From: Syntrophotalea acetylenivorans | Lineage (GTDB): Bacteria; Desulfobacterota; Desulfuromonadia; Desulfuromonadales; Syntrophotaleaceae | Direction of reading: 5' to 3' | NCBI RefSeq assembly: GCF_001887775.1 | Contig: NZ_CP015519.1 | Span: 2,850,001-2,914,000 of the forward strand | DNA length: 64,000 bases | Shown: positions 16,500 to 39,847 of the stretch, piece after piece | Layout of the letters: each line of letters starts with the position of its first letter | Numbering within the stretch: position 1 is the stretch's first letter | The notes under the pieces: generated by a model | What the model saw: the letters and a program-made list of their open reading frames with translations, nothing else | What the model was told of the DNA's origin: nothing | The model's database searches: none | Translations under genes and position numbers: made by a program

Positions 16500-16529
16500 A
16501 AGCAACTATTGGTTGCTGTTTGTTGAGAT

Positions 16530-16601
16530 GTTAACTGGGCAAAACCGGGGAGATCCGGTGACGCAAAGCCACGGGTCCTTCGAGGATCGCCGGGTTGTTA
16601 A
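16530..16601 (+). promoter_or_regulatory. GEMM-I riboswitch, c-di-GMP type (G20)
   Basis: The core GGGCAAA is followed by a 6-bp P2 stem capped by the GNRA tetraloop GAGA, then the invariant GACGCAAAGCC-like joining segment (TGACGCAAAGCC here), a P3 stem (GGTCCT/AGGATC) and GCCGGGTT with a closing TTAAC/GTTAA P1 helix. The base equivalent to position 20 of the Vc2 aptamer is G, as in c-di-GMP sensors. It lies in the leader of a chemoreceptor gene, a classic GEMM target, and is followed by a terminator. Confidence 0.93.
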
Positions 16602-16663
16602 ATAAAATGATACAAAATCATCATAGTATTAACATAGAGATAGAACGAGAAAATAGTTAATTG

Positions 16664-16709: not shown

Positions 16710-16784
16710 TAATCCATGAATGTGCTCATTCTCTTTTAATTGCAATGTAATAACTTGAGGTCCAACTTTCAGAAAGGGAGAACT

Positions 16785-18875
16785 ATGAAACTCAATTTGC
16801 GTGCAAAACTGCTGCTGCCAACTTTTGCGGTGATAATCTTATGCCTGGCTGTGACAGGTTTTTATTCTTATCGTACCGCCAGAATATCTGTGGAAACGGC
16901 TTTGAAAGAGCAGATGAAAACGATCGCCGATAATATGAGTAAGCAGATCGAGGCCAATGTAACAGATCTGACTCGCACCTTTCGCAGTCTGGCCGGCCGC
17001 AGTGTAGTCCGCACTCTTTTGGTTGATAGCGGGACTACTGCAACGGAAAAGGTACCGGAGGCCGAAGCCGCGTTGCTGCAGATGATGCAGGACTACCCGG
17101 GAGAGTTTGAGTTCCTGGCCGTCATTGGGGGGGACGGCCAGGCGTTGGCCGCCTCAAACCACGAGTTGGTCGGTCAACTCAACGTGGCTGATCGCGGTTA
17201 TTTTAAAGGCAATCTAGCCGGAAAAGTTGGCTACGAGGTGGTCAAGAGCCGGGTATCGGGCGAGCCGATCCTGGTATTGGCAGTTCCGGTCTCGATACAG
17301 GGGCAGCCTCGAGGGGCCTGTATCGGCGCCGTACGCATCAGTTATTTTGCCGAGCAGTACGTTTCGCCGGTTAAGGTTGCTGAGCGTGGCTATGCTTATC
17401 TGGTCGATGCAACCGGAACCTTTCTCGCTCATCCGGATCCTAAAAACATTCTCAACGGCACCATCGGTGATTATGACTGGGGGCGCAAGATGCTCGCCGA
17501 AGGCAATGGCTTTCAGGTTTATGACTGGAAAGGTCAGAGCAAAGTCGTTTCTTACCAGGTTATTCCCACAACTGGTTGGGTCATTGCCGCCGGTGCTGAA
17601 TTCGACGATATGTTCGCTCCCTTGGCTGGAATCGCTCAGGCCAATATCCTGGCGGCTGTGCTGACTCTGATTGGAGTTGGGGTGGTGCTGTTTGTGATTG
17701 CCACGTCGATCGTCAAGGCGGTGCAACAGGGGGTCGATTTTGCCGAAGAAGTCAAGGAAGGCGATGTCGGTCGGCGATTGAATTTGGCTCGCCACGACGA
17801 AATCGGCACTTTGGGTGCCGCTCTTGATCGGATGGCGGATGGCCTGGAAGAAAAGGCCCTGCTGGCTGAAAGCATCGCCAATGGTGACCTGACGGTTGAA
17901 GTCGGCAAGTTTGGTGAGCGCGACCGCCTCGGTCAGGCTTGCGCCAGGATGGTAACTAACCTCGGCGACCTGATGACCCAGTTGCAGGCGGCTGCGGAGC
18001 AGATTGCCGCTGGCAGTGTGCAGCTCGCTGAAGGCAGTCAAAGTCTCTCCCAGGGTGCCACGGAATCGGCGGCGTCCCTTGAGCAGATCAGCGCCTCCAT
18101 GACCGAAATGGCTTCGCAGACAAAGCTCAGCTCCGATAATGCGGACCAGGCTAACGGACTTTCCAACGAAGCGATGAGTGCAGCCACTAACGGCAGCGAA
18201 TTGATGGCTGAGATGGTCACAGCTATGGGAGCCATCAACAACTCGGGCCAGGATATCGCCAAGATTATCAAGGTCATCGACGAAATAGCGTTCCAGACCA
18301 ACTTATTGGCTCTTAACGCCGCGGTTGAGGCGGCCCGTGCCGGTCAACACGGCAAGGGTTTTGCGGTGGTGGCTGAGGAGGTTCGCAACCTGGCGGCACG
18401 AAGTGCCAAGGCTGCCAAGGAAACCGAGGAACTTATCGAGGATTCGGTCACGAAAACTCGCCATGGCAACGAAATTGCGGAGAAAACTGCTGCCGCGTTA
18501 AAGGGGATTGTCAGCGGTACCACCAAGGTTTCGGATCTGGTGGCAGAGATTGCCGCTGCCAGCAAAGAGCAGTCCGAAGGTATCGGTCAGGTCACAGAGG
18601 GACTCGGCCAGATCGACCAGGTCACCCAGCAATCGACGGCCAATGCCGAAGAGACTGCCGCTGCGGCTGAGGAACTTTCCGGCCAGGCCGATCATCTGCG
18701 ACAAAACCTGGCTCGGTTTAAGGTGAAAGGGGGGGCGGCCCAGTTCTCAGCCCGCTCCGTTGCTCCGCCGTCTCTCCCTGCCGTTCCTCCGACCGGTATG
18801 GACGCTGTTGGATTCGATGCCCCAAGGTCGGCACAGGTTATCGCCCTTAACGATGGGGAGTTTGGTAAGTACTGA
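16785..18875 (+). CDS. Methyl-accepting chemotaxis protein with Cache sensor
   Basis: A 696-aa chemoreceptor. An N-terminal membrane helix (about 7-30) precedes a periplasmic double-Cache-like sensor domain (about 35-280), a second membrane helix near 285-310, a HAMP domain and a cytoplasmic coiled-coil signalling domain. The conserved hairpin tip [20 protein letters not shown] is present. The C-terminal tail is Pro/Ala-rich and lacks an obvious CheR/CheB tether pentapeptide. ATG 16785 has AAAGGGAG upstream; the longer frame starts inside the leader. Expression is expected to depend on c-di-GMP through the GEMM riboswitch. The ligand is unknown. Confidence 0.95.
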
Positions 18876-23973: not shown

Positions 23974-26007
23974 TCAGGAGTTATGTTTAGCCAGAAGGGT
24001 GGGGATGGCGTCCGGTGCCACCGGGCGACTGAACAGGTAACCCTGGCCGAGATCGCAGTCGAGCTGTTGCAGATAATTGAGCTGCTCCTGGGTTTCGATC
24101 CCTTCGGCGACGGTCTGCAGGTCGAAGCTGCGGGCCAGGGCCAGGATCGAAAAAACCAGCTTTTCGTTGTCGCGGTTGCCGGGGATTTCGTGGAGGAAGG
24201 AGCGGTCGATCTTGAGCTTGCTCAGAGCCAGATGGCGCAGGTAATTGAGAGAGGAGTGTCCAGTGCCGAAATCGTCGACGGCAAAGCGGACCCCGACCTG
24301 CCGCAGGCGGTGCATGGTGCCGAGGGCTTCCTCGATATTGGCCATGATGGCGCTTTCGGTGATTTCCAGTTCCAGCCACTCAGGCGCAAGTCCGGTATCA
24401 TTCAGGGTCCGCAGGACCTTGTCGACAAAATCCTGTTGCGCGAACTGTTTGGCGGAGATGTTGACCGTCACCTGGATCGGCGGCAGTCCGCTCTGCTGCC
24501 AACGCCGGTTCTGGGCGCAGGCCTGGTGCAAAATAAAATCCCCCAGGGGATGAATCAGCCCCGAAGATTCTGCTACGTTGATAAAGATTTCCGGCGAGGG
24601 GTTGTCGCCGTTCGGTCCGGCCCAACGCGCCAGAGCCTCTACGCCGCTGATGCGACCGCTCGCCAAATCGATCTGCGGTTGATAATGGAGATAGAATTCC
24701 TGGCGTTGCAGGGCTTCGCGCATATGCTTTTCGAACAGAAAGGTGGCTTCGCGGTCCCGCTGCATCTGGGGGAGGAAATGAATATGCCGGTTGCCCCCCT
24801 GCTGTTTGGCCTCGTTCATGGCAATGGTCGCCTGGCGCAGTAGGCTGGCGCTGTCCTGGTCTTCCGGTCGACTGGTTACGATACCGATGCTGGCTGTCAG
24901 ATGAACCACATGCTCGCCGACCTGCAGTGGGTTTTGAAGTTCCTTACTCAGTCTCTGCACCAGTTGTGTGAGGCTGTCCGGTCGTGAAATATTGCTGTAG
25001 ACCAGGGCAAATTCATCGCCGTTGATGCGAGCCAGCATATCGTTGCAGCGCATCTTTTTGCTGAGTCGCAGGGCAACTTCACAGAGCACCTGATCGCCAC
25101 AATCGTCGCCGAGAGAATCGACTACCTGCTTAAACCGGTCGATGTCGAGCAGCACCACCGTCAGCGGCTTGCCACTCTGACAGTAACGTCCCAGGGCCCG
25201 GTCGAGCCACTCGAAAAGTTGGCTGCGATTGGGCAGACCGGTCAGCTGGTCGTGCCTGGCCAGGTTCTTACAGTGCCCCTCGAGCTGGCGCAGAGCCCGT
25301 TCCGTATTCGCCAGCTGTGAACGATTTTCAATCATGCCGCGAAGGACGGCGATGCGGCCCTGCTTTTTCACCGGAATCAGGTGAAGCAGAACCGGAACAC
25401 TTTGTCCTTTGCTGATTTCGACCGTGAACTCTGCCGACAGGGATTTCTCTTCCTGCAGGGAGCGCTTGTGCAACCGCTCAATTCGCTGGCGGTCGGCATC
25501 GACAACCAGTCGCTGCAGGCAGATGTTTTGATCTGATACCGGTTTGGTGAATCTGAACAGCTCGATGCAGCGGGGATTGGCGAAATGGAGTTGGCCCTGC
25601 AGATCGCATTCGAAGACCGGCTGCGGCAGGCAGGACAGGGCCTGTCTGACCAGGTCGGTGGGACCGTTGATCTCGGGGGCCTCGACAGGAGAGATATGCA
25701 GGGCGGCCTGGGTAGCCTGCCCATCCGGGCCGGTCAAGGGCTGTATCCGCAATTGAAGGTCGCCGAGCAGGGGGTGGTGCAGTTGCCTGTCGACGGGGCG
25801 GCTGGTTTGAAGAGCTTCGCGAATATGGCAGCTATTGCAGGGACAGGAGTTATGCAGGGCGAGCAGCTTATGGCAATGAGCCGATTCCATTGGGGCGGCT
25901 GATAACAGCTGGCCGCTGGAGGAGATAATCCTCCCTGTTGCATCCACTAAGGCACAGAAATCGCCATGGTGCAGAAAATGTTTGTGCAAGCTGCTCGCTA
26001 AGGACAT
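23974..26007 (-). CDS. PAS-GGDEF-EAL protein, probable cyclic-dinucleotide phosphodiesterase
   Basis: A 677-aa cytoplasmic signalling protein. The N-terminal ~250 residues hold two PAS-like regions; the first carries a Cys cluster (HCHKLLALHNSCPCNSCH) as in redox- or metal-sensing PAS domains. The GGDEF domain (about 250-410) has NGDEF instead of GGDEF and Val where the guanine-contacting Asn should be, so cyclase activity is doubtful. The EAL domain (about 420-670) keeps all catalytic blocks: VEALARW, NISAKQF, ELEITES, DDFGTGHSSL, KIDRSF, AEGIET and GQGYLF. ATG 26007 was chosen because the upstream frame runs through a terminator hairpin. A GEMM riboswitch precedes it. Confidence 0.9.
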   Translation of the reverse strand: MSLASSLHKHFLHHGDFCALVDATGRIISSSGQLLSAAPMESAHCHKLLALHNSCPCNSCHIREALQTSRPVDRQLHHPLLGDLQLRIQPLTGPDGQATQAALHISPVEAPEINGPTDLVRQALSCLPQPVFECDLQGQLHFANPRCIELFRFTKPVSDQNICLQRLVVDADRQRIERLHKRSLQEEKSLSAEFTVEISKGQSVPVLLHLIPVKKQGRIAVLRGMIENRSQLANTERALRQLEGHCKNLARHDQLTGLPNRSQLFEWLDRALGRYCQSGKPLTVVLLDIDRFKQVVDSLGDDCGDQVLCEVALRLSKKMRCNDMLARINGDEFALVYSNISRPDSLTQLVQRLSKELQNPLQVGEHVVHLTASIGIVTSRPEDQDSASLLRQATIAMNEAKQQGGNRHIHFLPQMQRDREATFLFEKHMREALQRQEFYLHYQPQIDLASGRISGVEALARWAGPNGDNPSPEIFINVAESSGLIHPLGDFILHQACAQNRRWQQSGLPPIQVTVNISAKQFAQQDFVDKVLRTLNDTGLAPEWLELEITESAIMANIEEALGTMHRLRQVGVRFAVDDFGTGHSSLNYLRHLALSKLKIDRSFLHEIPGNRDNEKLVFSILALARSFDLQTVAEGIETQEQLNYLQQLDCDLGQGYLFSRPVAPDAIPTLLAKHNS

Positions 26008-26072
26008 GCGGTCTACGTGGCTCCCTACAGCCAGCCGGCGGCTGGTTTCAGGTTGCGGCGGAAAACGGCAAT

Positions 26073-26101
26073 AAAAAATCCACCTTCGACCGAAGGTGGA
26101 T
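26073..26101 (-). terminator. Terminator in the leader of the EAL gene
   Basis: On the minus strand ATCCACCTTC, a GGTC loop, GAAGGTGGAT and then TTTTTA. It stands between the GEMM aptamer and the EAL start codon and is the likely expression platform. Confidence 0.88.
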
Positions 26102-26122
26102 GAATAGTACAATCCAGTAACG

Positions 26123-26206
26123 TTCTTCGGCAACCTGGCGATCCATATGTTATGGACCCATGGCTTTGCGTCCCCGCATTGCTGCGGGTTTGCTATTGAC
26201 GAGAAA
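26123..26206 (-). promoter_or_regulatory. GEMM-I riboswitch with A20 (cGAMP-type, GEMM-Ib)
   Basis: The aptamer reads (minus strand) GCAAA, a 6-bp P2 stem with GNRA loop GCAA, GACGCAAAGCC exactly, a P3 stem GGTCCA/TGGATC, and GCCAGGTT, with P1 formed by TTCTCGTCAA and TTGCCGAAGAA. It aligns base for base with the Vc2 aptamer and with the copy at 16530. The base equivalent to Vc2 position 20 is A (at 26194), the change that distinguishes 3',3'-cGAMP (cAMP-GMP) riboswitches of Geobacter from c-di-GMP ones. It lies upstream of an EAL phosphodiesterase gene. Confidence 0.9.
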
Positions 26207-26413
26207 TTGATAATTTTGAGATTGTCTCTTTAAATACTGCTTAACCGTTGTCCTTGTCAATAAAAAAATCCCAAGAATTCTGGTGGTTTGGTTAGATAAA
26301 CACCCTGTTCGTTGCCACCGCTATTTGGTGGTCAGGGAAAATATGCCTTGCTGCGGAACGTGTCACTGGGGACAATGGGGCGGCTTACGGGGGTACTTTT
26401 TTGCGAGGGATAC

Positions 26414-31420: not shown

Positions 31421-31471
31421 GCATAAAGCTGCCGATGACCTGGCAATGCGCTTTTGCGGAAAGGTAAGAGA

Positions 31472-33937
31472 ATGCCTACATCATTTCATAGCGCAACCAG
31501 CCCGCTGCATCTGGTGCCTCGCCCTAACGAGACCAGGTTAAGTCTCTCGGAAATTTTTGCTGACCTCGGAATCGACGCCTCAGAAAACGTGGACCTGGCT
31601 TCTCGCCTGCCATTTTGTGGAAATGACGTCACTGCAGGTTCGGAGATGGAGTTGCAGGCGGCCGTAGCCGGGCGCAGGGAGGCCGTCGACCTGCCCCAGG
31701 CCATTGAACGGTCCAACTATTTTGCTCATATCATTCGACGGGCAAGGGTAGGCGATAGCCCGGCCAGCCTGGCCAACCTGCTGGAACGATTTGTTGCCAG
31801 TAACGATGAACAGATTTGGGAAAACAGCTGGGTACATTTTCCCCGTCGGAACCTTAGTCCGTTGGCCGACCAGGTGCTGCGCCATGATCTCCTCGCCGAC
31901 AAGTCTCATCCGGAGCGGGGGCTGCGCAGTGACCGAAATCGCTATCTGATGGTCGGAACCGGCGGCGATGAGCATCTGCGCCTGCCGATCAGTTATCTGG
32001 TCAAACTGGCCCTGGCCGATGTGCTCGGCAGTCGATCCGACTTGCCGCAGACTGTTCAGCGGACCGGTTGGCGGTTAATGGATCATTTTCTCAACGACAA
32101 TACCTCGCCGGAGACCTTCTCTTTCAACGTTTTATCCCTGCGGCCGGAGAACGGTTTGGGCCGGGTTGTCGGTCGGGAAGCTGCCAAGCGTTTTGCTCTG
32201 ACCCATCTGCTGGTCCAATATGCCAATGTCAGTTTTGGCCTGGCCGAAAGCGGACAAAGGGCGATGATCTACGCCGCTCCCCATCCACCTCAGCGACAGA
32301 AAGCGCTTAATGAACTGATTCCTGACGCTCTTTACCGTGAACTGTTTATGAGCCCTTGTCTGTCGGGTTGGGACCGGGGGGAGGAAAAACATCGCTACAT
32401 GCATCTCTGCCATGAAGTATTGAGCCGCAGCCAGCTCAATGCTGTGGCCAAGCTTAGAGATGCCGGTATTATCCCTAATAATCTGGTGGTGTTGCCCGGT
32501 GTCTCCAATACCAGTCTGGCCAACAACGGCACCCATATCAGCATCGGCAGCCAACTCCTTACGGCCCGCCGGGCAGCTGATGACAAGGCCTACGGCATGG
32601 CGGAAGAAAAGTATGTTGGCGACCTGGTGGTAAAGATCAGCGAGCATTTTTTGCCTCTGTTTGTAGGCACCTACAGTGCAGCTCCTTATCGGCTGGGCTT
32701 TGCCGATTTTCATCCGGAAAAGGCCCTCGGTTTCCTTTCCCACGAACTCGACTTTACCCATCTGCGCATGCTCTGGCGACGCTGGCGAAAAAAAGCCAGC
32801 TTGTCGGTCTGTGGCCGCTCGGTTACCCCCTTCGGTCCGGTATGGCTTGACCGGTTGTTCGCAGGCCTGTTCCGTCTCAAGGGGGATTACGTTTCCGACT
32901 TCCGGCTTATTGATTACCCCGCCTGGTTGCTCAGTACCTATCAACAGCCGGCCTGGGATGGTCGCCTCGGCAATCAGGATCGACTCAAACAGGACCTGGC
33001 CGAGATGGGCATCTTCGACAACCGTATGTCCCTGTATATGCTAATCAAATTGCGGGAATATGCGACCATGGGTTTCACCGGTTTCGAGGGCCGGCAGTAC
33101 AGCCTGTTTGCCGATTACCAGGAAGACATGGGCCGGGCCGCGGACCTGCAGACCCTGATAACTGCCTTGGCTTTCAAATATATGGCTCAGGGACGAATCA
33201 AGCACCGTCATATCCCGGATAATCCGCTGGCGGAAAGTGAGCGCCGGCAGATGTTTTTTGCTTCGGCTCTTGGCATACCGACTTTCTTCGTCCGTAAAAA
33301 CAGCCGCAATCTGCTGCTGAGAAGAATTCTCAAACGTACCGCGCAACTGCGGGTCAGCCGCCGCTATCCCGGTTACGTGCGGGTGCCCGTCGAAGAGTAT
33401 CGTAAGGCGCTCTTGCAGACCCTCATCGAAGACGGTTCGGATCTGGTGGAATCGTTGAACCTGAAGGAGACCCTAAACGATCTGCGACTGCGGCTGGAGG
33501 TGCCCGGGCATCATGGCGCTTTTGGCAAGCTCAACGCGGGAATCCTTAAGGGGATCGGAAAATCGGCGGCCATGAAGGTTCCGGCCGGAGAGTTCAATCG
33601 GGCAGCCGAAGATTATTATCGCGGCTCCTTGCGCCAACGTCACTTGAGCGAAGGGCTGGATATTCTTGCCGATAATTTTCGAGATCTGGAAAAACGTCGG
33701 ACCGGGAATGGCGAACTCCACCTCGCCCTCAGCCAGTTGCTGGAAGGGCACAGTGCGAGCGAATATTTCCAAAAAGTGCGGCGCGATCTGCTGACCGATC
33801 GGGCGCCACAGGAGGCCCTCGGCCGGATAATCACCCTGCTGTTGCTGACCGTGGCGGCCGATAGCGACTCGTCAGTAAGTTCTCAAGATTCGAAGGAGAA
33901 TGCCGGTGATCATGTCCCTGCCACATCAGTATATTGA
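31472..33937 (+). CDS. Unrecognised 821-aa protein of the lipid cluster
   Basis: A large soluble-looking protein without signal peptide or membrane segment. Distinct stretches are VVLPGVSNTSLANNGTHIS near residue 350, FVGTYSAAPYRLGFADFHPEK near 415, and MSLYMLIKLREYATMGFTG near 520; Tyr, Arg and His are frequent, as in an enzyme. I do not recognise a family. The base composition equals that of its neighbours, so recent transfer is not indicated. ATG 31472 has AAAGG upstream. Its end overlaps the start of the phosphatidylserine-decarboxylase-like gene by 32 bases, so the two are translationally coupled, which ties it to lipid head-group chemistry (inference). Confidence 0.85.
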   Translation: MPTSFHSATSPLHLVPRPNETRLSLSEIFADLGIDASENVDLASRLPFCGNDVTAGSEMELQAAVAGRREAVDLPQAIERSNYFAHIIRRARVGDSPASLANLLERFVASNDEQIWENSWVHFPRRNLSPLADQVLRHDLLADKSHPERGLRSDRNRYLMVGTGGDEHLRLPISYLVKLALADVLGSRSDLPQTVQRTGWRLMDHFLNDNTSPETFSFNVLSLRPENGLGRVVGREAAKRFALTHLLVQYANVSFGLAESGQRAMIYAAPHPPQRQKALNELIPDALYRELFMSPCLSGWDRGEEKHRYMHLCHEVLSRSQLNAVAKLRDAGIIPNNLVVLPGVSNTSLANNGTHISIGSQLLTARRAADDKAYGMAEEKYVGDLVVKISEHFLPLFVGTYSAAPYRLGFADFHPEKALGFLSHELDFTHLRMLWRRWRKKASLSVCGRSVTPFGPVWLDRLFAGLFRLKGDYVSDFRLIDYPAWLLSTYQQPAWDGRLGNQDRLKQDLAEMGIFDNRMSLYMLIKLREYATMGFTGFEGRQYSLFADYQEDMGRAADLQTLITALAFKYMAQGRIKHRHIPDNPLAESERRQMFFASALGIPTFFVRKNSRNLLLRRILKRTAQLRVSRRYPGYVRVPVEEYRKALLQTLIEDGSDLVESLNLKETLNDLRLRLEVPGHHGAFGKLNAGILKGIGKSAAMKVPAGEFNRAAEDYYRGSLRQRHLSEGLDILADNFRDLEKRRTGNGELHLALSQLLEGHSASEYFQKVRRDLLTDRAPQEALGRIITLLLLTVAADSDSSVSSQDSKENAGDHVPATSVY

Positions 33938-36885: not shown

Positions 36886-38049
36886 TTGCGTATCACCCTT
36901 GTTACAGAAACTTATTTTCCGCAGATCAACGGGGTCTCCCGTACCCTGGAAAAGCTTGTCGGGCATTGCTCTGATCGGGGTGATCAGATTCAGCTCCTGG
37001 TGCCCCGCTACGATCAATCCCTGAAGGAGGATTCTGCCGGTGTGGAGCGCACCGACTTCCGCGGATTTTCTCTGCCCTGTTATCGTGAGGTGGCTCTGCC
37101 GCTGACCACTCCCGTCCGAATTCGTCGGGAGCTGTCGCGGTTCGGCAGTCAGCTGGTGCATATCGCTACCGAGGGGCCCCTTGGTTGGGTTGCTTTACGG
37201 GCCGCACGATCTCTTGGGCTGCCGATAGTCAGTTCGTACCATACCAACTTCCCTCAATATCTGGCCGGTTATCGGCTCGGTTGGCTGGAGCCGCCGGCCT
37301 GGCGTTATTTGCGCTGGTTTCACAACCGCACCTTGCAGACTTTTTGCCCCACACCATCGATTCGTAGTCTGTTGCTGGATAGGGGATTTAAAAACGTTGG
37401 TGTCTGGGGGCGGGGGGTCGACAGCGACCATTTTCATCCTTCGCAGCGCGACGAAGCGTTGCGCCTTTCTCTCGGTTTTCTACCGCAGGAAACTGTTTTG
37501 GTTTATCTCGGTCGTCTGGCCGCAGAAAAGAATCTGCAGATGCTGTTCGACGCCTTCGACCGGCTGTCTGCCGATAACCCTTGCCGTTTGCTGGTAATCG
37601 GTGACGGCCCTCTTGGCGATCGGCTGCACAAAAAGGCAGATCAGCGGGTGATCTTCGTTGGCTATCAGCGCGGTATCGAGTTAGCCCGACTGTTGGCGGT
37701 CGGCGATCTGTTGGTATTCCCCTCGCTGACCGATACCTTTGGCAACGTTATGCTTGAGGGCATGGCCAGCGGCCTGCCGGCTATCGGCTTCGATGTGCCG
37801 GGGCCCAAGGATGTCATTATGGACGGTCAAACGGGAAATGTTGTGCCCCATGCGACCGTCGCCGACCTGGCGCTTGCCATTGACCGAATGGTCGGCGATC
37901 AGGATGAATTACGCAAGATGGGGCAGCAAGCCAGACGGCATGCCGAAGGCCAGAGCTGGCCCCGTATTATGGAGGGTGTTCGTGAGCAGTATGAGTGCCA
38001 TATGCCTGGCCCAGAACGTTGTAGAAGACGACCCGGATATGCTGACTGA
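36886..38049 (+). CDS. GT4-family glycosyltransferase
   Basis: A 387-aa GT-B enzyme similar to the GDP-mannose-dependent alpha-mannosyltransferases and SqdX-type glycolipid transferases. N-terminal block VTETYFPQINGVSRTL, central VSSYHTNFPQYL, nucleotide-sugar region LVYLGRLAAEKNL, LLVIGDGPL and the EX7E-type block TDTFGNVMLEGMASGLPAI. The last ~15 residues are Arg/Pro-rich and overlap the next gene. The start is TTG 36886 with AGGGA five bases upstream; no ATG is available. A lipid acceptor is likely from the cluster context. Confidence 0.9.
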   Translation: MRITLVTETYFPQINGVSRTLEKLVGHCSDRGDQIQLLVPRYDQSLKEDSAGVERTDFRGFSLPCYREVALPLTTPVRIRRELSRFGSQLVHIATEGPLGWVALRAARSLGLPIVSSYHTNFPQYLAGYRLGWLEPPAWRYLRWFHNRTLQTFCPTPSIRSLLLDRGFKNVGVWGRGVDSDHFHPSQRDEALRLSLGFLPQETVLVYLGRLAAEKNLQMLFDAFDRLSADNPCRLLVIGDGPLGDRLHKKADQRVIFVGYQRGIELARLLAVGDLLVFPSLTDTFGNVMLEGMASGLPAIGFDVPGPKDVIMDGQTGNVVPHATVADLALAIDRMVGDQDELRKMGQQARRHAEGQSWPRIMEGVREQYECHMPGPERCRRRPGYAD

Positions 38050-39847
38050 AATTTTACATGACATCCTTGTCGGAGAGCAGCTGACCGCCCTGTTTCAGCC
38101 CATTGTCGATCTGAAAGGGGGTGGCATCGTCGGTTATGAATCCCTGGTGCGCGGGCCTTCCAATAGTCCCCTGCATTCGCCGAGTAATTTATTTAGCGTC
38201 GCGGCCCGTTGTGGTCGATTGCTTGAACTCGATCTGTTGTGCCGTGAGGTCAATATCCGTGCTTTTGCCCGGCAAGGTTTGCCGGGGAGACTTTTCCTCA
38301 ACGTTAATCCCAGCTCTCTTTTGGAACCGGGATTCAGGGCCGGATTTACCCGGCAGTTTCTTCACCAACATGGCTTGAGCCCACAACAGGTGGTAATCGA
38401 ATTAACCGAACACTATCCTGTCGATGACTTCGAAGTGACCCGCCAGGGGGTAGCCCACTATCGGGACATGGGCTTTGCCGTGGCTATCGATGACCTCGGC
38501 GCCGGTTATTCCGGTTTAAGACTCTGGTCGGAACTGCAGCCCGATTTCGTCAAGTTCGATCGCCATTTTATTCAGGGCATTCATGGAGACGAAAACAAGG
38601 CGCGTTTTATTCGTTCCCTGCAGGAAATCGCTCATGAACTAGGCTGCAAGACCATTGCAGAGGGGGTCGAAACGGACGAAGAGTATCGGCTGGTAGGGGG
38701 AATCGGTGTCAGCCTCGGGCAGGGGTACTACTTTGCGCGACCAAGCGTGGCGCCTCCCCGGCATCTCCATTCTTTGCAACGTCTCCAGCCGACCAGGGAA
38801 AATACCTGTTATCTTCCCCGGCGCACCAAAACTGTAGAGTGCCTGGCTCAAACGATGCCGGCAGTCGAGCCCCAGGTGAAGGTGGCGGAGGTTGGTGATA
38901 TGTTCAGTTCCATGGCCAACCTGAAAACGCTGCCGGTGGTAGGCGAGGGTGATATTCCGGTAGGAATCGTTCATCGCAATACTTTTATGGAGATTATTGG
39001 TAGCCGATACGGTCGAGATTTATATGGCCGAGAACCGATTGTCAAGTTCATGGACGCAGAGCCGCTGGTCATCGACAAAAACCAACCCATTGAAATACTC
39101 AGCCAGTTGATTACCAGCGCAGGCAACTTTAATGCCCTCGACCACTTTATTGTGACCGACAAGGGGCTGTATGCCGGTATCGGAACGGTTATGGACCTAC
39201 TGCGGGAAATTACCGACCTTCAGATCAAACATGCCCGCCATGCCAACCCCTTGACTCTGCTGCCGGGCAATGTGCCGCTCAACGAGCATATCGACATGCT
39301 TCTTGAAGAAGGGGGCGAATTTGTTGCCTGTTATTGCGATCTCGACAATTTCAAGCCCTTTAACGATTACTACGGGTATGGACGCGGCGACCAGGTGTTA
39401 CGTTTTTTCTCCCGTTTGCTGGTCGAAACGGTCGACAGCCAGTGCGACTTTGTCGGACATATCGGCGGGGATGATTTTATGGTGGTTTTTCAGAGCGGAT
39501 ACTGGCTTGAACGCTGCCAGTCGCTGATTAAGAATTTCGATCGGGATGTGGCCGCTTATTACGATCCCAAGGATCGCTTGAAAAACGGTTTGTGGAGTGA
39601 AAGCCGCACTGGGTTGCCGACCTTTTTCCCGGTGATCAGTCTTTCCATTGGAGCAACCGTTGCCGCCGACGGAAATTTTTCCAGTTGTCACCAAATTGCT
39701 GCGGCTGCTACCGAGGTTAAGCGTCAGGCTAAAAAGCAGCAGGGCAGCGTTTTATGCATCGATCGCCGCAATGAAAAGCAGACCTTCAAAGTGTCTTGCG
39801 ATGAGTTGAGTGCGACACTGATGAAGGCTAACGAGAGGCTAGTGTAA
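37982..39847 (+). CDS. EAL-CBS-GGDDF signalling protein
   Basis: A 621-aa cytoplasmic protein with the order EAL (about 20-260), a CBS pair (about 290-415) and GGDEF (about 425-600). The EAL part keeps its catalytic blocks (YESLVRG, NVNPSSLLE, ELTEHYP, IDDLGAGYSGL, KFDRHFI, AEGVET, GQGYYF), so phosphodiesterase activity is plausible. The GGDEF motif is GGDDF; activity as a cyclase is uncertain. GTG 37982 has GGAGGG upstream and overlaps the glycosyltransferase gene by 68 bases. It could adjust the lipid pathway to c-di-GMP; that is inference. Confidence 0.88.
   Translation: MSSMSAICLAQNVVEDDPDMLTEILHDILVGEQLTALFQPIVDLKGGGIVGYESLVRGPSNSPLHSPSNLFSVAARCGRLLELDLLCREVNIRAFARQGLPGRLFLNVNPSSLLEPGFRAGFTRQFLHQHGLSPQQVVIELTEHYPVDDFEVTRQGVAHYRDMGFAVAIDDLGAGYSGLRLWSELQPDFVKFDRHFIQGIHGDENKARFIRSLQEIAHELGCKTIAEGVETDEEYRLVGGIGVSLGQGYYFARPSVAPPRHLHSLQRLQPTRENTCYLPRRTKTVECLAQTMPAVEPQVKVAEVGDMFSSMANLKTLPVVGEGDIPVGIVHRNTFMEIIGSRYGRDLYGREPIVKFMDAEPLVIDKNQPIEILSQLITSAGNFNALDHFIVTDKGLYAGIGTVMDLLREITDLQIKHARHANPLTLLPGNVPLNEHIDMLLEEGGEFVACYCDLDNFKPFNDYYGYGRGDQVLRFFSRLLVETVDSQCDFVGHIGGDDFMVVFQSGYWLERCQSLIKNFDRDVAAYYDPKDRLKNGLWSESRTGLPTFFPVISLSIGATVAADGNFSSCHQIAAAATEVKRQAKKQQGSVLCIDRRNEKQTFKVSCDELSATLMKANERLV

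Follow-up and report, generated by a model that had tools for sequence, protein, structure and literature searches.

The window, the 64,000-nucleotide stretch of DNA analysed here (positions 2850001-2914000 of a one-contig genome of 3.22 Mb), carries a GEMM-I riboswitch aptamer in front of a gene for an EAL-domain protein. Which second messenger does this element sense, and does its ligand turn the gene on or off? The earlier note had called a complete GEMM-I aptamer on the minus strand and proposed a covariance-model search as a check, and the search confirmed the call. RF03167 matched at 26125-26203 on the minus strand with 67.0 bits (E 1.1e-13) in a cmscan of the entire window, and RF01051 at 26126-26204 with 70.6 bits (E 9.7e-14) in a genome-wide search, both above the gathering cut-offs of 59 and 35 bits, respectively. 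With RF01051, the window element is the top scorer among the seven GEMM-I elements of the genome, and the 14 control genomes gave no match to this model. The aptamer contains the GCAA tetraloop, GACGCAAAGCC, P3 and a bulged P1. On the minus strand, 26196-26188 reads ATAGCAAAC, so that an adenine, not a guanine, precedes GCAAAC, just as the earlier note had stated for Vc2 position 20. The three key bases in Table 1 are what we take to be Vc2 positions 20, 47 and 92, of which C92 presumably pairs with the ligand guanine. Despite the 67 bits, and although RF03167 is the best-scoring member of its Rfam clan, we did not file the element as c-di-GMP-I-GGC, because the consensus of that model has G47 after GACGC where the window element has A. 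The candidate promoter, picked by eye, is absent from the hits of a consensus promoter scan.

Table 1. Features of the riboswitch locus in window coordinates.
Feature	Position	Strand	Basis
Possible promoter, TTGACA (26260-26255), 18 nt, TATTTA (26236-26231)	26231..26260	-	by eye
GEMM-I aptamer (P1, P2 with GCAA loop, P3)	26125..26204	-	covariance-model matches
Position-20 equivalent, A	26194	-	base preceding GCAAAC
Position-47 equivalent, A	26167	-	contrasts with GGC variant
Position-92 equivalent, C	26130	-	would pair with the ligand guanine
Strand A, GCCGAAG; coincides in part with the 3' strand of P1, also an arm of the predicted antiterminator	26125..26131	-	folding
UGGAU, predicted to form the second part of the antiterminator by pairing with the outer terminator arm	26112..26116	-	folding
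Intrinsic terminator hairpin, 10 pairs, then UUUUU (26077-26073)	26078..26101	-	terminator scan
PAS-GGDEF(NGDEF)-EAL protein, 677 aa from ATG 26007	23974..26007	-	probable start codon

The reading that we prefer, with a probability of roughly 0.4, is that this natural A20 GEMM-I riboswitch would be a transcriptional OFF switch for a c-di-GMP phosphodiesterase gene, exerting negative feedback on cGAMP.

As to the ligand, A20 favours cGAMP according to the literature, and a preference for cGAMP appears probable here as well. The A20G change converts a Geobacter cGAMP switch into a c-di-GMP-selective one (PMC6456294), and a G20A GEMM-I RNA is tabulated as a cyclic AMP-GMP sensor (PMC11352751). 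The step from A20 to cGAMP, which the earlier note had taken, therefore gains from this published reversal and from a GacA-like synthase in the same genome, but the lower P2 does not fit it. In the window element, the lower P2 is G21-C46/C22-G45, the form of c-di-GMP switches, whereas the Geobacter cGAMP form has C,U against G,G, a trait that may not define that class and that is seen in exact matches among class genomes to a 33-base core. This core is taken to represent the Geobacter-type cGAMP switch; allowing up to three mismatches, it had no match in the genome of the window element. Since the lower P2 is G-C/C-G rather than the Geobacter cGAMP form, a mixed cGAMP/c-di-GMP specificity is possible.

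The strongest competitor is an OFF switch through which c-di-GMP, alone or beside cGAMP, would repress its own phosphodiesterase in a positive feedback, and we regard it as a possibility to be held tentatively. The GC form of the lower P2, like that of c-di-GMP switches, suits it, as do the effect of lower-P2 changes on selectivity and the binding of c-di-GMP by cGAMP switches via a protonated adenine, both described in PMC9262584. One Geobacter switch is described as sensing both ligands (PMC6456294), and a Vc2 G20A structure, 3MUM, exists (table in PMC10671752), both consistent with such a specificity. Two further observations, the distribution of the synthase and of the position-20 base among relatives, bear on the choice.

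A source of cGAMP is plausible in this genome. Among the 39 GGDEF matches, the Hypr position was examined in 38 (L203 left out), and a serine was found there in two, L200 (with RYGGDEF) and L205 (with GGDDY). The top PDB match of L200 (G000:C1:1303420-1304217, where G000 denotes this genome) is 6d9m (E 1e-51), a fusion with a response-receiver GAF diguanylate cyclase and presumably the GacA structure of Geobacter. L200 therefore looks like a GacA-like Hypr GGDEF protein. All 30 of its best 30 homologues, as fetched, have the Hypr serine; at E 1e-40, 57 of 58 relatives have a homologue, in a few cases only about 40% identical, and at E 1e-55 a GacA-like match is seen in 201 of 277 class genomes. 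A GacA-like synthase is present in 14 of 14 genomes of the family, which argues against the c-di-GMP or dual-specificity switch. We also considered the presence of GacA as proof of the ligand and rejected it. Among 136 genomes of the order, tallied by hand and compared by Fisher test, 118 have a GacA-like match (E 1e-55), and 63 of these contain A20 GC-type cores, against 1 of the 18 that lack such a match; a few of the A20 core matches are due to chance, having no P2 pairing. G20 cores drop too (95 of 118 versus 5 of 18), and 14 of the 18 genomes without the match belong to one family; the contrast tracks lineage and does not distinguish the ligands. L200 lies upstream of a hisS-like frame, as judged by eye, and READ, a possible I-site, precedes its RYGGDEF. 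L205 (G000:C1:3097359-3097664) is a HAMP-GGDEF protein with the Hypr serine, and its GGDDY motif resembles the GGDDF variant described for GSU1937 (PMC8835794).

Within the genome, five of the seven GEMM-I elements have A20: the window element and those at a FIST gene (L002), a UvrD-like locus (L003), an outer-membrane efflux locus (L005) and a GGDEF-EAL gene (L006). The two G20 elements belong to a phosphonate-type binding protein (L004) and to the chemoreceptor at window 16740 (L007). The latter element is a second aptamer in the window (16528-16602, plus strand), before a dCache-HAMP chemoreceptor gene (16740-18875, plus strand). L006 (G000:C1:1703133-1703207) shares the OFF layout described below and has a homologue in G001 that is 80% identical and A20 too. 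The A20 element L003 (G000:C1:889496-889571) also has the OFF layout and is followed by a short cysteine-rich frame, seen by eye, and a UvrD-like helicase gene.

Homologous loci, assigned by BLAST of the downstream frames (two of them interrupted by contig ends or gaps), differ at position 20. In G004, of the same genus, the homologue of the window gene is 60% identical at the protein level and comes with A20 and a nearly identical terminator; in another genus, g4 (G007 and G009), the homologues come with G20, and the scan gave no strong terminator. At the chemoreceptor locus, A20 is found in G005, G008 and G012, which represent two other genera, and G20 in G000, G001 and G004; at the CheW locus, A20 is found in G006, G012 and G013 and G20 in G011. 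The G20 in g4 would suit a c-di-GMP or dual switch. In both g4 genomes, however, the FIST element has A20 where the EAL element has G20, and the elements found before FIST genes have A20 in six of six cases, from six genomes of two genera, which suggests that the base matters and speaks against that alternative. With G20 at the homologous loci of one other genus, the specificity base varies from lineage to lineage, and A20 is, judged from these comparisons, recurrent and kept. A broader proposal would be that in this family one-base changes at position 20 repeatedly reassign homologous GEMM-I switches between cGAMP and c-di-GMP, here placing a c-di-GMP phosphodiesterase under cGAMP repression in negative feedback with GacA; we offer it with reserve, as doubtful but worth stating.

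Next to the ligand, the direction of control has to be considered. The terminator hairpin (-15.8 kcal/mol with flanks by folding) is complete without strand A, and both GCCGAAG and UGGAU are complementary to its 5' arm. Because the terminator is separate and its 5' arm is complementary to the 3' strand of the aptamer, the platform predicts repression, and the layout looks like that of a transcriptional OFF switch. The earlier note had the gene either induced or repressed by cGAMP; the terminator layout, which the note did not read, supports repression, and the ON platform with strand A in the terminator, a trait of the described GEMM-Ib members that may not be defining, is not what we found. 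Step-wise folding of the lengthening transcript gave P1, then the strand-A antiterminator, then the terminator, with another fold at length 120. Before the 3' arm is completed, the antiterminator as drawn lies within 0.4 kcal/mol of the minimum, and in the minimum fold at that length, too, strand A is base-paired to the terminator arm. In the full-length transcript, the terminator state (-47.7) is favoured over the antiterminator state (-40.6), and it lacks P1, the 5' leader pairing near 26110 instead. As the terminator state is more stable and P1 is absent from it, OFF control would have to be kinetic, and the folding model suggests that read-through without ligand may be low. A shuffle test of the pairing between strand A and the terminator arm gave 0.13 for the window element by itself, a single-element test being weak. 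CUUCGG is a common hairpin motif, and part of the complementarity between strand A and the terminator may therefore be convergent.

A census of the family gave 73 RF01051 matches in 14 genomes (71 over the cut-off), which were fetched and typed. Read with a simple motif rule, 25 have A at position 20, 47 have G and one has C; the lower P2 is GC-type in 58 (19 A20 and 39 G20), and the other 15 mostly have a CC/GG form. With the stricter classifier, strand A lies inside the terminator in 13 of the 15 non-GC-type elements, in 4 of the 39 G20 GC-type elements and in none of the 19 A20 GC-type elements; a looser terminator classifier called one of these 19 (in G002:C16) ON-like. In 15 of 19 A20 and 15 of 39 G20 elements of the GC type, strand A can form six or more consecutive pairs with the 5' arm of the terminator. 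In a swap test, the 19 A20 GC-type elements paired better with their own strand A than with swapped ones (-11.9 versus -10.8 kcal/mol, p 0.003); 31 G20 elements gave p 0.001 and 54 A20 elements of other families p 0.08, all values being inflated by related, non-independent elements. GGDEF-EAL genes, identified by motif flags, stand behind 5 of 19 A20 and 9 of 39 G20 GC-type elements (L001 is counted as EAL, its locus being cut at 1.5 kb, and L181, a G20 element flagged GGDEF only, is excluded). The shares are similar, so we dropped the idea of a special tie of A20 to EAL genes: the target is the usual one and the base at position 20 is the odd part.

Across the class, A20 GC-type cores were found in 97 of 277 genomes (a reversed-pattern control gave 3 hits), G20 cores in 190 and the Geobacter-type core, with up to three mismatches, in 136. 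From among the matches listed, leaving aside those without P2 pairing, 80 regions outside the family were fetched; 78 have a core passing the P2 filter, with 82 A20 elements altogether. Taking as target the longest frame starting 50-1000 nt downstream, which 5 of the 82 lack, 7 elements stand before an EAL gene and 4 before a GGDEF gene that lacks EAL, so that the pairing of an A20 element with an EAL gene recurs in other families of the order. After 21 of the 82 were dropped for want of a recognisable P3 end, the remaining 61 comprise 38 with a strand-A run of at least six, 16 with a shorter run, 3 ON-like elements and 4 without a terminator.

These platforms bear on the improbable case of a Geobacter-like ON switch, in which cGAMP would raise expression of the phosphodiesterase. 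The described Geobacter cGAMP switches are ON switches (PMC6456294, PMC9262584), and the other P2 form in the family builds its terminator from strand A; here the terminator is complete without that strand, which A20 GC-type elements of the family leave unused apart from the one found by the looser classifier. Least convincing of all, and very improbable, is a constitutive attenuator behind a decayed or hardly coupled aptamer, which the equilibrium preference of about 7 kcal/mol for the terminator would allow, but which sits badly with an aptamer scoring 67 and 70.6 bits, with the aptamer and terminator kept in the same-genus homologue at 60% protein identity, and with the swap test.

Among known systems, the element shares the GEMM-I fold, A20, A47 and C92, and a GacA-like Hypr GGDEF protein in the same genome, with the Geobacter GEMM-Ib cGAMP switches (pgcA, pilM and Gmet_0970), and differs from them in its lower P2 and in its separate terminator, strand A lying inside the terminator there. 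Vc2, which we take to have a GC-type P2, provides in its G20A mutant and in the G20A GEMM-I biosensor the engineered equivalent of this natural element, the Vc2 mutant being a laboratory variant of a different switch. Described targets in G. sulfurreducens are cytochromes, pili, a regulator, transpeptidases and hypothetical genes, unlike the PAS-GGDEF-EAL gene here, and deletion of gacA there lowered transcription of all genes behind GEMM-Ib elements, i.e. ON control (PMC6456294). The layout also differs from the pilM ON switch, with its terminator T+A+H, and resembles that of Cd1, the transcriptional c-di-GMP OFF switch of C. difficile, with terminator T+H and an antiterminator using strand A (PMC9262584); Cd1 is unlike it in having G instead of A20, in its target gene and with respect to the possible P1 helix.

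The downstream gene was described in the earlier note as encoding an EAL phosphodiesterase. The domain search indeed found an EAL domain (PF00563, 256 bits), within a PAS_4-GGDEF-EAL protein rather than as EAL alone. The metal and catalytic residues of EAL enzymes (EAL, N, E, DD, K, E, Q) are all present in an alignment to MorA, which we presume to be active, and are invariant in four homologues, three of which share 60, 48 and 48% identity with the window protein. All four homologues have NGDEF as the cyclase motif. Three cysteines N-terminal to the PAS domain (C61, C71 and C76 of frame 23974-26055) are also invariant in the four and possibly form a metal or redox site. NGDEF lies outside the consensus of active cyclases, [G/A/S]G[D/E]E[F/Y] (PMC8835794), and the EAL residues are intact, so the protein is likeliest a phosphodiesterase whose cyclase domain is probably inactive. 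As start codon, the TTG listed at 26133 was dropped because it falls inside the aptamer, and the ATG at 26007 is likelier. In a scan of relatives' contigs with this gene, none of the best 80 of 590 relatives came close to the gene, their best segments being 31-44% identical. The genome has 14 EAL matches over the cut-off, 39 GGDEF and 6 HD-GYP-type matches in total.

The idea of a loop between a second messenger and its own hydrolase, put forward in the earlier note, was not supported: c-di-GMP is the described substrate of EAL enzymes (PMC12072042), and the breakdown of cGAMP is assigned to HD-GYP enzymes (PMC11352751). The EAL protein would most likely hydrolyse c-di-GMP, not the ligand cGAMP, and the phrase would be right only if the EAL domain also cut cGAMP or if the ligand were c-di-GMP.

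For the preferred cGAMP OFF switch, we propose the following course. Without ligand, GCCGAAG and UGGAU would pair with the nascent 5' arm of the terminator and the gene would be read; with cGAMP bound, strand A would be kept in P1, the terminator would form and the gene would be shut. Reduced phosphodiesterase would raise c-di-GMP, which would inhibit GacA via its I-site. Geobacter data support the view that c-di-GMP inhibits GacA inside cells (PMC6456294), and the same route was suggested for a GGDEF-EAL mutant whose cGAMP reporter activity was altered (PMC8835794); therefore the circuit would amount to negative feedback on cGAMP and a cross-link of the two messengers. The c-di-GMP-type lower P2, the ON direction of Geobacter GEMM-Ib switches and the terminator favoured at full length count against this OFF-switch reading. 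If it is true, a phosphodiesterase gene would link cGAMP and c-di-GMP signalling at the RNA level, one second messenger controlling the level of another, with a sign opposite to that of the described Geobacter cGAMP switches, and the homologous A20 and G20 loci would form a natural series on the evolution of riboswitch specificity. To our knowledge, no cGAMP OFF switch has been known before, and this would be the first. In the literature searched, as far as the sources cover it, we found neither a cGAMP switch before an EAL gene, which the gene lists of Kellenberger 2015, Nelson 2015, Ren 2015 and Wright 2020 could contain, nor a c-di-GMP switch before pdcB.

Elsewhere in the window, a frame of 827 aa (31454-33937, plus strand) has no Pfam match at E 0.001, and one of 702 aa (37739-39847, plus strand) matches EAL (genome 2888069-2888743) and, in part, GGDEF, with a GGDDF motif.
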